A stretch of DNA of 61,204 bases, taken from contig JAGWHE010000004.1 in NCBI GenBank assembly GCA_028866945.1, positions 1-61,204 on the forward strand, in the 5' to 3' direction. The translations under genes were made by a program, and so were the position numbers. The stretch is from Nitrososphaerota archaeon (GTDB taxonomy: Archaea > Thermoproteota > Nitrososphaeria > Nitrososphaerales > Gagatemarchaeaceae). The number at the start of each line of letters is the position of its first letter. The stretch's first letter is position 1. Positions 35,789 to 39,530 of the stretch are shown here, piece by piece. The notes under the pieces are model-generated. The model made no database searches, was not told the origin of the DNA, and saw nothing but the letters and a program-made list of their open reading frames with translations.

Positions 35789-35879
35789 AGGTGCCCCCCT
35801 CATCGACCAGTAAAAAATCTGTGGCTTGCGGCCTAAATCTCCGAAGGTTCTATGTATCCGCACACGCGCGGAAGGGGCC

Positions 35880-37019
35880 ATGAGAGGGCCTCCACTCACC
35901 GAAGCCGAGGTGAAGCGGTACGGCAGACACCTCGTCCTCCCTGAGATAGGGGCAGAGGGGCAGTCGAAGCTCAGGGCCTCATCCGTGCTGGTGGTCGGGG
36001 TCGGTGGCCTCGGGGTGCCGGCCGCCGTGCAGCTTGCTTCGGCGGGGGTGGGGAGAATCGGGCTACTCGACGGCGACACCGTGGAGGCATCCAACCTTCA
36101 AAGGCAGTTCATCTTCTCAGAGGCAGATGTCGGGAGAAAGAAGGTGGAGATAGCCGCGGAGAGGCTCAGGCAGGTCAACCCCAATGCCAGAGTCGCCACC
36201 TACGACGTCAGGCTCGGCTCGGACAACGCGCTCGACTTCATCGGAGAGTACGACGTCGTGGTTGACGCAACCGACAACCTTCCGAGCAGGTATCTGATCA
36301 GCGATGCCTGCGTCATGCTGTCGAAGCCCGACGTCTACGCGAGCGCCCAGGCATTCGAAGGCCAGGTGTCGGTGTTCTACTCTCCCCTCGGCCCGTGCTA
36401 CCGCTGCATCTACCCGGCTCCGCCGCCTCCGGAATCGGTAAGATCCTGCGAAGAGACCGGAGTCATGAGCGCCGTGCCTTCTGTCCTGGGTACTCTCCAG
36501 GCCATCCAGGCGGTAGCCCTCATCCTGCAGAGGGGCTCCCCCCTCGTCGGCAGGCTCCTAGTCTTCAACGCCCTCGACAGTTCCTTCGACGAAGTGAAGA
36601 TCAGGAAGAGCGGAAGCTGTGCAGCCTGTGGTCCGGAGGCGACTCTGACGGCTCTCATCGACTACGAGGAGTTCTGCAACGTCAGGCCACGGCCGGAGTC
36701 CAAGGTTGACGTCACCCCCGTCGAGCTGAAGGCGATGCTCGACGCCGGCGCCCCGGTCACCCTCCTCGACGTCAGGGAACCGTATGAACACTCCATCTGT
36801 CACCTGGATGGTGCGGTGCTCGTCCCCCTGGGCAGCCTAGTCCGGGGCGCCGCCAAGTTGGACAGGTCGAAGCGGCTGGTCGCCTACTGTCACACGGGAG
36901 TCAGAAGCAGGACCGCGGTGGAGTTCCTGCGCAAGGCAGGGTTCTCGGATGTCATGAACCTCAAGGGGGGCATCGAAGCTTGGGCGGAAGAAGTCGAGCC
37001 CACGATGCCGAGGTACTGA
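35880..37019 (+). CDS. moeB: ThiF/MoeB/HesA-type adenylyltransferase fused to rhodanese
   Basis: 379 residues from ATG 35880. The N-terminal E1-like domain (GVGGLGVPAA, DGDTVEASNLQRQF, DNLPSRYL, CYRC and CAACG zinc pairs) adenylates the C-terminus of a ubiquitin-like sulfur carrier. The C-terminal rhodanese (LLDVREPYEH, CHTGVRSRT) carries the active cysteine. It supplies sulfur to molybdopterin, thiamine or tRNA thiolation via SAMP/MoaD/ThiS. Immediately downstream lies a transposon-like element. Confidence 0.93.
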   Translation: MRGPPLTEAEVKRYGRHLVLPEIGAEGQSKLRASSVLVVGVGGLGVPAAVQLASAGVGRIGLLDGDTVEASNLQRQFIFSEADVGRKKVEIAAERLRQVNPNARVATYDVRLGSDNALDFIGEYDVVVDATDNLPSRYLISDACVMLSKPDVYASAQAFEGQVSVFYSPLGPCYRCIYPAPPPPESVRSCEETGVMSAVPSVLGTLQAIQAVALILQRGSPLVGRLLVFNALDSSFDEVKIRKSGSCAACGPEATLTALIDYEEFCNVRPRPESKVDVTPVELKAMLDAGAPVTLLDVREPYEHSICHLDGAVLVPLGSLVRGAAKLDRSKRLVAYCHTGVRSRTAVEFLRKAGFSDVMNLKGGIEAWAEEVEPTMPRY

Positions 37020-37032
37020 CCGGTCCACCTCA

Positions 37033-37040
37033 CGCAGTCC
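37033..37040 (+). repeat. Left 8-bp target-site duplication
   Basis: CGCAGTCC directly precedes the left inverted terminal repeat and is repeated exactly at 37556-37563 after the right one. Confidence 0.85.
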
Positions 37041-37056
37041 GGTTCTGTTAACTTAG
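37041..37056 (+). repeat. Left terminal inverted repeat
   Basis: GGTTCTGTTAACTTAG, perfect inverted match to 37540-37555. Confidence 0.85.
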
Positions 37057-37081
37057 CGGTTGTTCGGGGAGTTTGTTCCCC

Positions 37082-37099
37082 CTGTTAACTTGCGGTTGG
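37082..37099 (+). repeat. Sub-terminal direct copy of the left end
   Basis: CTGTTAACTTGCGGTTGG repeats the left-end core CTGTTAACTTAGCGGTTG with one base missing. It may be a second transposase-binding site, or serve as the TATA region for the cargo gene. Confidence 0.6.
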
Positions 37100-37136
37100 C
37101 GAGGCTTCTCAAGCCGCGCATTCTGCATGGCCTTTC

Positions 37137-37451
37137 ATGCCCTTAGTCAAGGGGCGCCCCAGGCACTCTCTCGCCTACAATATCTCCTTCATTCTGGGCG
37201 GGTTCGGATTGTGGGCGATTGCATTTCCATTCTATCCTCTGTGGTTCAGAATCGCATTCATCTTCCCTTTTCTTTTTGGGACAGGGCTGTGGGTTGGAGG
37301 AGTCCTTTTCCGCTTCATCGGATGGGAAGAGTCATTTCCATCAATCAAATCAATAGTGGATGGCATCACTGACGGTATTGGAATCGCGGCCCTTTTGATT
37401 ACGATTGCGCACTTCTATCTCGGGCTTCCCGTCTCTGCCCCTGCTCTCTGA
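37137..37451 (+). CDS. Small membrane protein carried by the transposon-like element
   Basis: 104 residues with about three membrane helices (ISFILGGFGLWAIAFPF, IAFIFPFLFGTGLWVGGVLF, GIGIAALLITIAHFYLGL). It lies entirely within the inverted repeats, and its GC content is visibly lower than that of neighbouring genes, suggesting transfer. It shows no transposase motif. The family is not recognised. Confidence 0.6.
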   Translation: MPLVKGRPRHSLAYNISFILGGFGLWAIAFPFYPLWFRIAFIFPFLFGTGLWVGGVLFRFIGWEESFPSIKSIVDGITDGIGIAALLITIAHFYLGLPVSAPAL

Positions 37452-37539
37452 CTGCCGCATTCTGGATAATCGTCTTCCACTTGTCAGCCCCCTCGACCTT
37501 GATACCCGCCATCTCCGAGGGGGTCAGTCCGCTCAACCT

Positions 37540-37555
37540 CTAAGTTAACAGAACC
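37540..37555 (-). repeat. Right terminal inverted repeat
   Basis: CTAAGTTAACAGAACC, the reverse complement of 37041-37056. Confidence 0.85.
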
Positions 37556-37563
37556 CGCAGTCC
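37556..37563 (+). repeat. Right 8-bp target-site duplication
   Basis: CGCAGTCC, identical to 37033-37040. Confidence 0.85.
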
Positions 37564-37602: not shown

Positions 37603-38478
37603 TTGGTCACGGCTCTCATAATCGCCGGCGAGTGGGCCCTGTTCTTCGTCGGCGCTGCCGTCCCCGTCTACATAGTCTTCGGGCTCATAGGCCTCGCCGG
37701 CCTGAGAGAACTCACGCGATACGAGTCGCACGGCTCCATCTACTACCAGCTCAACCCGGCCACCAAGCTTGCCGCCCTCTTCATGGTGGCCGTGTCATCT
37801 TCGTTCGCCGGGCTCTACCTGGGGCTGCTGGCGACCGGGGTCATCCTTGCATCATACGTCACCTTGTTCCACGGCGCAGAGAAACTGAAGCTAGGCTTTC
37901 TGTTCACGGTCGCCGTTGTCTGGGGGACCGTGTGGGGCTCGGTCTCCGACAGGATATCCTTCGCTATCAACGCCGGATCCAGCGGCCTCCCAGTCAACGA
38001 CTCGTTCCTCTACAGGGACCTGACCAGGGTGGTCGCCTCTGAGGTTGCGGTCTCAGGGGTCTTCCTCCTCGCCCTGATCCTCGTGATGACCAGCACCCCA
38101 TCGTCGGTGATGCGGGCGCTTAGGAGGATCGGGATACCCAACCCCATCACCTTCTCCGTGGTCGTGGGCATGAGGACGGTCCCTCTCCTCCTGGAGGCCA
38201 TCAACGGCATCGTCAAAGTGCAGCTGAGCCGGGGGTTCGGGACGCGGGGCAGCCGGTCGCTTGGACCGCTGTACGTCGTCGCAGCCGCTGTCTTCGCGCT
38301 TGTCCCCGCCCTGATCTACCTGCTGAGGGGGGCGAGGAACACCGCCATCTCGACAGGGACCAGGGCCTTCGGAGCTTACAAGAGCCGTACCTACATGAAG
38401 AAGCCGCGCTTCGGTCCCGCCGATGTCACGGTGCTCGCCCTCGCCGCGGCGTTCCTCTTGGCCGCGTTCTTCTACTAG
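37603..38478 (+). CDS. ecfT: ECF transporter T component (EcfT-like), copy 1
   Basis: Membrane scaffold linking the ATPases to a substrate-binding S protein. 291 residues with several membrane helices. The EcfT-type arginine segments are STPSSVMRALRRIGIPN and GFGTRGSRS. TTG 37603 lies 31 bp after TATA CCTTAAGT, which survived the element insertion just upstream. It is convergent with a second T gene (4-bp overlap). Confidence 0.85.
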   Translation: MVTALIIAGEWALFFVGAAVPVYIVFGLIGLAGLRELTRYESHGSIYYQLNPATKLAALFMVAVSSSFAGLYLGLLATGVILASYVTLFHGAEKLKLGFLFTVAVVWGTVWGSVSDRISFAINAGSSGLPVNDSFLYRDLTRVVASEVAVSGVFLLALILVMTSTPSSVMRALRRIGIPNPITFSVVVGMRTVPLLLEAINGIVKVQLSRGFGTRGSRSLGPLYVVAAAVFALVPALIYLLRGARNTAISTGTRAFGAYKSRTYMKKPRFGPADVTVLALAAAFLLAAFFY

Positions 38479-39530
38479 GCAGTCGAGGTGGCGCCGCAGC
38501 TCGACCCCACCGCCGAGTATGGGATGGCCCTGCCGAACCCATACAGGTTGGAGAAGACCGCCAGGGCGACCAGGCCTGCGATGATCGCGAAGAAGACGTA
38601 GTCTCCCTTCGAGAACGTGAATGGCTTCAGGAAGGTCCGCTGCTTGTACGCCCTGAACGCCCTGGTGTCCGCGGAGATCGCCGTGTTCCTCGCCCCCCTG
38701 AACAGGAACGTCATCGCAGGCACGATGCTGGTGAGCACCCCGCCGAAGAGGTAGAAGACCCGGGTGACCTTGTTGGCCTTGGCGCCGTACCCCCTCATGA
38801 ACTGGACCTTCACAGCTGTGTCGAGGGTGTCGAAGATCCTCGGGACCGTCCTCATCCCGACGACGAGCGCAAAGATCAGGACCACGGGGAGCTTGAGCCG
38901 CCCCAGGGTACGGAGAATCGCCGAGGGCGTGCTCGTCATGATGAGTATGAGAGAGGAGATCAGCACCACCCCTGCTCTCGTGGATACCTGCATGCCATAG
39001 AGCAGCCCCTGGGTGGTCAAGACCGGCTGATACCCGAGGATCGTGAAGTAGGACGCCCACTGCCAGACCGGGGTGAACAGTGCCATCCAGGCGGCGCTCG
39101 GCGGCTGGGGGGTCGCGCTGACGGACGCCACGCAGATGTGGTAGAACGCGTACATGAGCAGCCCATAGGGGGTCTGGGTGGCGTAGTACCAGGCGAGCCC
39201 GATCACAGAGGCGAAGACCAGGGCGCTCCCGAGGGCGAGCCTCCTGAGCCCCCTCTTGAGGGTAAGGTACGTCGACAGGACCACCAGGCCGATGACCAGG
39301 TCGATGGACCAGGCGGTGACCGCCACCACGAAGGTGAGAACGATCGTGAAGATGATCTTCGTCAGCGGATTGAGCCGGTAGTAGAAGGTGTGGTGCTCCT
39401 CGTACCTGGAGATGTCCCTGAACCCGGTGAGTCCAATGTACCCGAAGATGAGATAGAGTGGGGTCACCAAGCCGAAGACGAAGAGGAACCAGCTCCCGAC
39501 GTTGACCCAGACCGCGTCGAGGAGCGCCAA
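38475..39530 (-). CDS. ecfT: ECF transporter T component (EcfT-like), copy 2
   Basis: 351 residues. The same fold and motifs as copy 1: LNPLTKI, STPSAILRTLGRLKLP, VVGMRTVPRIFD, RGYGAKANK, LFRGARNTAISADTRAF. The two copies share clear blocks (FRDISRYEEHHTFYYRLNP versus LRELTRYESHGSIYYQLNP), so they are paralogues. Longer than copy 1 owing to an extra central loop. It follows the fused ATPase gene in the same operon with a 2-bp gap. Confidence 0.87.
   Translation of the reverse strand: MALLDAVWVNVGSWFLFVFGLVTPLYLIFGYIGLTGFRDISRYEEHHTFYYRLNPLTKIIFTIVLTFVVAVTAWSIDLVIGLVVLSTYLTLKRGLRRLALGSALVFASVIGLAWYYATQTPYGLLMYAFYHICVASVSATPQPPSAAWMALFTPVWQWASYFTILGYQPVLTTQGLLYGMQVSTRAGVVLISSLILIMTSTPSAILRTLGRLKLPVVLIFALVVGMRTVPRIFDTLDTAVKVQFMRGYGAKANKVTRVFYLFGGVLTSIVPAMTFLFRGARNTAISADTRAFRAYKQRTFLKPFTFSKGDYVFFAIIAGLVALAVFSNLYGFGRAIPYSAVGSSCGATSTA

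Follow-up and report, generated by a model that had tools for sequence, protein, structure and literature searches.

A 515-bp insertion in a Nitrososphaerota genome as a probable internal-deletion derivative of a cargo-carrying IS6-related transposon

Background

Insertion sequences (IS) of the IS6 family are described as compact elements that almost never contain passenger genes inside their ends. An arrangement of IS ends and a passenger gene that is devoid of a functional transposase represents a mobile insertion cassette (MIC), and the combination of an own transposase with a passenger characterises a tIS. With respect to archaea, the IS6 members from ISfinder are 696-853 bp in size and encode transposases of 211-237 amino acids, according to the consulted part of the respective study (PMC6807381). 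ISDsp3 is the sole passenger-bearing member listed in the consulted parts of the IS6 review, which likewise describe two MITEs of 227 and 336 bp without open reading frames (ORFs) as well as zinc-finger transposases in clade h (Clostridia, 340-350 amino acids) and in clade i (PMC7986276).

A 515-bp insertion from a Nitrososphaerota archaeon, the genome assembly of which comprises 1.27 Mb on 73 contigs, was compared with these systems. The window designates the whole stretch of DNA that was analysed, i.e. 61,204 nucleotides of contig JAGWHE010000004.1. Taken alone, the element is of modest significance and mainly an example of decay into a transposase-less cassette; the main interest lies in a cargo-carrying archaeal IS6-related group, some members of which carry defence genes. 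Within the literature that was searched, cargo-carrying IS6-related elements of these archaea are not described.

Structure and insertion site of the 515-bp element

The insertion, as read directly from the sequence, comprises 515 bp (37041-37555) and is flanked by two identical copies of the 8-bp target-site duplication CGCAGTCC, located at 37033..37040 and 37556..37563. The inverted ends GGTTCTGTTAACTTAG are perfect over 16 bp and agree at 24 of 27 positions across a 27-bp span. The left terminal inverted repeat (37041..37067, plus strand), which contains the outer box GGTTCTGTTAACTTAGCGGTTG..., represents the transposase-3' (IRR) end, and the right terminal inverted repeat (37529..37555, minus strand) consists of the outer box only, lacks the inner box and abuts a transposase remnant. 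Both ends read GGTTCTG, i.e. they start with GG and have a G at position 7, and the GC content of the element is 0.53 versus 0.63 in the flanks. A sequence-only reading of this stretch had reported the segment with its 16-bp perfect ends, the 24/27 match over the longer span and the 8-bp duplications, an enclosed three-helix ORF of 104 residues with lower GC content, an IS6-like end sequence and duplication length, and moeB and ecfT as neighbouring genes, and all of these features were recovered in the present analysis. The neighbours were specified as a ThiF plus rhodanese gene of the MoeB type (35826..37019, plus strand) and an EcfT/CbiQ-type transporter gene (37603..38478, plus strand), both of which are located outside the element. 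Two EcfT-type genes are arranged convergently at positions 37603-39530 of the window, and this arrangement is repeated in the genomes G017 and G008.

The earlier suggestion that the segment is a true transposition footprint was confirmed at the sequence level. The combination of a 16-bp inverted match with an 8-bp direct match was estimated to occur by chance at ~4^-24 per position pair, and a search for ends at 98 transposase loci detected them in 33 cases, some of which represent one element counted twice, versus 0-2 cases in a control with wrong-offset duplications. These two results exclude chance as the origin of the footprint. A second copy of the 515-bp element was not detected in its own genome. 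Moreover, when 31 genomes of the genus were searched for MoeB, no moeB gene adjoining ecfT was revealed. Inspection of the ecfT neighbourhoods showed that the genome G008 contains carboxylase, biotin carrier, peroxiredoxin and ecfT genes in the same order as the window, and this syntenic locus is devoid of both moeB and the insert. The sequence-only reading had recommended a search for empty sites, in which moeB and ecfT would be separated by one copy of CGCAGTCC. As moeB is missing from this locus in the closest relatives, neither the MoeB search in the 31 genomes nor the ecfT neighbourhoods yielded such a base-exact empty site. The insert-free locus of G008 along with the absence of a moeB-ecfT pair elsewhere in the genomes searched indicated that the segment is not common to the relatives, so that the possibility of all relatives sharing it at the same place could be dismissed.

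Transposase remnants inside the element

No transposase ORF is present in the 515-bp element, in which ~29 codons and a tail of this gene remain. The right remnant (37453..37539, minus strand; codons ~342-372, RLSGLTPSEMAGIKVEGADKWKTIIQNAA) covers the ~29 final codons of a gene for a DDE transposase and is 63-72% (~70%) identical to intact transposases, in frame; on the minus strand, the right terminal repeat runs directly into it. At the left end, a transposase 3' tail (37048..37125, minus strand) with the codons QNARLEKPRQPQVNRGNKLPEQPLS was detected, which reads MQNARLEKPRQPQVNRGNKLPEQPLS followed by a stop codon within the terminal repeat and comprises the last ~25 codons only. The GCATTCTG motif is located 78 nt from the left end of the element, and the corresponding GC(A/G)TTCTG motif, representing the QNA codons, is found 57-76 nt from the end in those intact elements in which the transposase gene ends at the terminal repeat. 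The similarity of these distances identifies the left end as the transposase-3' end and the right end as the promoter-side end. Accordingly, the previous statement that the segment contains no transposase holds for a functional enzyme, but C-terminal remnants occur at both ends.

The passenger ORF (37137..37451, plus strand) encodes 104 amino acids with three predicted membrane helices, deduced from hydrophobic segments, and is oriented convergently with the lost transposase. It is located between the two transposase 3' pieces, both of which are marked by a direct repeat matching at 11 of 12 positions (CGCATTCTGCAT at 37117..37128 and CGCATTCTGGAT at 37456..37467).

Intact relatives and comparison with known systems

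Contig C31 of this genome was found to contain an intact relative of 2,332 bp, the inverted ends of which match at 20/20 positions; it is flanked by the 8-bp duplication TCGGCGCA and encodes a transposase of 385 amino acids. A genus-wide search provided transposase matches in 24 of the 31 genomes, and a named-genome search added records from Bathyarchaeota, Nitrosopumilus, Gagatemarchaeum and Sifarchaeum; no transposase relatives were found on viral contigs. By means of their ends and 8-bp duplications, 28 distinct elements were delimited in Nitrososphaerota and Bathyarchaeota under decoy control, and the intact relatives share GGTTCTG ends and 8-bp duplications with the 515-bp element. The full-length IS with such ends that the sequence-only reading had proposed to look for therefore exists in the same genome, in the genus and in Bathyarchaeota, and its counter-hypothesis that the ends have no other copies in related genomes is contradicted by the 28 elements with ends of the same kind.

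The transposases of the relatives comprise ~376-402 amino acids with SWIM and CxxC zinc motifs. A Pfam search assigned the domains SWIM (PF04434) and DDE_Tnp_IS240 (PF13610, IS6-type), the latter with scores of 47.8 and 51.9 bits at a cut-off of 27. In NCBIfam, the IS6 family model NF033587 was the best match by far, with scores of 99.6 and 122.6 bits that are just under the cut-off of 125. A structure model of the transposase was of poor quality.

The group resembles the IS6 family (IS26, IS240 and the archaeal IS6 clades) in its 8-bp duplications, in the GG start and the G at position 7, and in the DDE_Tnp_IS240 catalytic domain of the intact relatives. Unlike the simple IS6 plan of 700-890 bp, in which the transposase spans nearly the whole IS, the relatives measure 2.1-5.3 kb and are distinguished by the large SWIM and CxxC transposase, by cargo and by two-box ends, and the 515-bp element is devoid of a functional transposase. 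In clades h and i, a zinc finger likewise extends the IS6-type catalytic domain at the N-terminus, but the consulted parts of the review refer to no cargo and no SWIM domain in either clade. As in ISDsp3 and tIS elements in general, a passenger gene is located within IS ends, but the own transposase that accompanies the passenger in the intact relatives has been lost from the 515-bp element, and extra DNA is present in all 20 near-complete relatives. The 515-bp element corresponds to an MIC in that IS ends surround a passenger and no transposase gene is present, but it differs by its transposase 3' pieces and by its archaeal, IS6-type nature. With the MITEs of IS6 it shares the short length, the inverted ends and the 8-bp duplication; in contrast to these ORF-less elements, it contains a 104-aa ORF with a homologue.

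Two-box organisation of the ends

Most ends of the group consist of an outer box (e.g. CTGTTAACTTAGCGGTTG), a short spacer and a direct copy of the outer box that is usually ~1 base shorter. The left end of the 515-bp element contains both boxes, and the right end the outer box alone. The left inner box CTGTTAACTTGCGGTTG (37082..37098, plus strand), which repeats the outer box in direct orientation (18 versus 17 nt aligned), reached a score of 30 (p=0.005) and outscored all 54 swapped inner regions. A comparison of 56 ends, which are not fully independent as the inverted repeat links the two ends of each element, revealed that the inner box matches the outer box of its own element better (mean score 18.6 versus 13.1), and none of 5,000 permutations reached the observed sum. 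The two-box ends make the recognition of DNA by the transposase directly testable. In the element L111 (788 bp, genome G025), the inner box has also been lost from the right end, beside a transposase remnant. Moreover, inspection by eye suggested that one end of each of the elements L039, L081:11690-14123 and L107 contains an inner box in inverted (ATCTCCAGC...GTTAAC) and not in direct orientation.

Origin and mobility of the 515-bp element

The transposase remnants indicate that the element was derived from a larger one by internal deletion and is not a self-standing cargo IS. Very probably, the 515-bp element is a non-autonomous, MIC-like derivative that arose by internal deletion from a larger cargo-carrying IS6-related archaeal transposon. 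In this scenario, a cargo-bearing transposon of this type, or an altered derivative of one, would have inserted between moeB and ecfT, and a deletion extending from just inside the outer box of the right end to transposase codon ~342 would have eliminated ~90% of the transposase together with the right inner box and the region on the promoter side. The remaining order would be outer box, last transposase codons, passenger, transposase tail, inner box and outer box, and, as judged by eye, the junction sequence GGTTGA would suit a deletion by microhomology. An earlier insertion or recombination step would be needed before or besides the deletion, since the position of the passenger between two 3' pieces is not explained by one simple deletion of a typical parent, the cargo of which lies beside the transposase gene. 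The loss of the right inner box favours the view that the deletion may have followed the insertion or that the derivative may be poorly mobile; deletion before and after insertion are indistinguishable in a single-copy element. In mechanical terms, the element is an insertion cassette, either stranded or mobile, and not an autonomous element. It is presumably unable to transpose alone, although it might be acted on in trans by L028, an intact related element at another place in the genome.

Transposase-truncated elements are not restricted to this locus. Short elements with 8-bp duplications occur in sister genomes, and those retaining the transposase C-terminus only include L107 (721 bp, G002), L111 (788 bp) and L167 (946 bp) as well as the longer elements L109 (1,607 bp) and L176 (2,277 bp). 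A manual count of the list from the 31 genomes of the genus yielded ~40 partial matches that cover only the last ~100 transposase codons and ~5 that cover only the N-terminus. These short elements, the intact inverted ends and 8-bp duplication of the 515-bp element, and the occurrence in the genome of a group member with an intact transposase gene would all be consistent with a functional non-autonomous MIC that is moved with its passenger by a related transposase in trans, for instance from contig C31. This alternative is possible but rather unlikely, as the 515-bp element is present in one copy, its right inner box is absent, and, by eye, only 13 of 20 end positions are shared with the intact element that resides in the genome. 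No further copies were found of the two short relatives tested either, so that there is no sign that short derivatives move. Thus, the initial proposal of a MITE-like, gene-mobilising element gained no support, given the single copy, the lost right inner box and the presence of an ORF.

A collapsed pseudo-compound transposon, in which two directly oriented copies once surrounded the passenger and deletions left two 3' pieces, appears improbable. It would account for the transposase 3' pieces, neither of them a complete copy, that flank the passenger in the same orientation and for the 11/12 direct repeat at the QNA codons, and directly repeated structures are known to be formed by IS6 elements, as stated in the consulted parts of the review (PMC7986276). 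However, the left piece is restricted to the last ~25 codons, and no relative with two copies around this passenger was found; the repeat is short and may have arisen fortuitously from conserved codons or as a small duplication upon insertion.

Cargo of the related elements

Extra DNA is present in each of the 20 elements (2,095-5,316 bp) in which the transposase region is essentially complete, and it amounts to at least ~0.6 kb of non-transposase sequence per element. Judged from these sequences, the parent group of IS6-related archaeal elements with zinc-finger transposases routinely carries cargo. The earlier expectation that IS6 elements do not normally carry cargo agrees with the single passenger-bearing member in the IS6 review but does not apply to this group, so that cargo in the 515-bp element is normal and not an anomaly. 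If the group is widespread and every well-delimited copy carries cargo, the view of gene flow and of defence-gene transfer in Nitrososphaerota and Bathyarchaeota would change.

The annotated cargo includes a complete type II restriction-modification pair, composed of an enzyme of the Tsp45I family and an N6/N4 methyltransferase, in an element with a perfect 8-bp duplication (L083:1303-4882, G023:C40), a methyltransferase with an Mrr domain (L033), a HEPN AbiV gene along with a four-helix membrane protein in an element with 16/16 ends (L084:3004-6012, G004), and a GIY-YIG protein (L085). Among the elements with a truncated transposase, L176:4637-6913 carries a ShosA/ShosT-like pair (Shosta-like DprA and phosphoribosyltransferase) and L109 a trypsin-like PDC-S45 protein. 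A similar DprA/phosphoribosyltransferase pair is located in another genome (L041:1947-3560, G012:C74), where it is flanked, as seen by eye, by a GGTTCTG end on one side and a putative transposase 3' remnant on the other. Many of the further cargo ORFs encode unannotated membrane proteins. With cargo and flanking ORFs called mechanically, membrane proteins were not significantly enriched in the cargo (19/44 versus 56/173, p=0.21) and are therefore not put forward as a rule; the enrichment of defence genes, likewise not significant in a manual tally (6/44 versus 3/84, p=0.06), is suggestive only.

A wider reading, which we regard as doubtful, assumes an undescribed IS6-related group of Nitrososphaerota and Bathyarchaeota that would be defined by SWIM-zinc-finger transposases, double-box ends and obligate cargo, the latter often consisting of defence genes (type II restriction-modification, Shosta-like, AbiV) and small membrane proteins. 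The transposase-less cassettes would then form a trans-mobilised second tier, and the passenger of the 515-bp element would be a membrane-acting defence or stabilisation protein.

The passenger gene

Searches in Pfam, PHROGs, NCBIfam and PADLOC assigned the passenger to no family, and a phage search provided no match. NCBIfam matches at E 0.03 were dismissed as weak. A class-wide profile search yielded additional matches that were weak only (E 3e-5 to 0.006) and were set aside. The structure model, of low confidence (pLDDT 64), contains three helices and gave no fold match. The company kept by its relatives prompts the guess, made with low confidence, that the passenger could be a small membrane protein for defence, toxin or stabilisation functions.

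One clear homologue, of 101 amino acids, was identified in the genome G023 of the same genus, and no element ends were found near its gene. It supports the passenger as a real protein, which would be a translated membrane protein that is kept for its own sake or merely not yet lost. That the ORF exists by chance in decayed transposon DNA and is not a gene would be compatible with the missing family match, the lack of a clear promoter by eye and the low-confidence model, but is very unlikely, as the G023 homologue is of near-equal length, shares the C-terminal motif and is 31-33% identical from end to end (E=4e-10).
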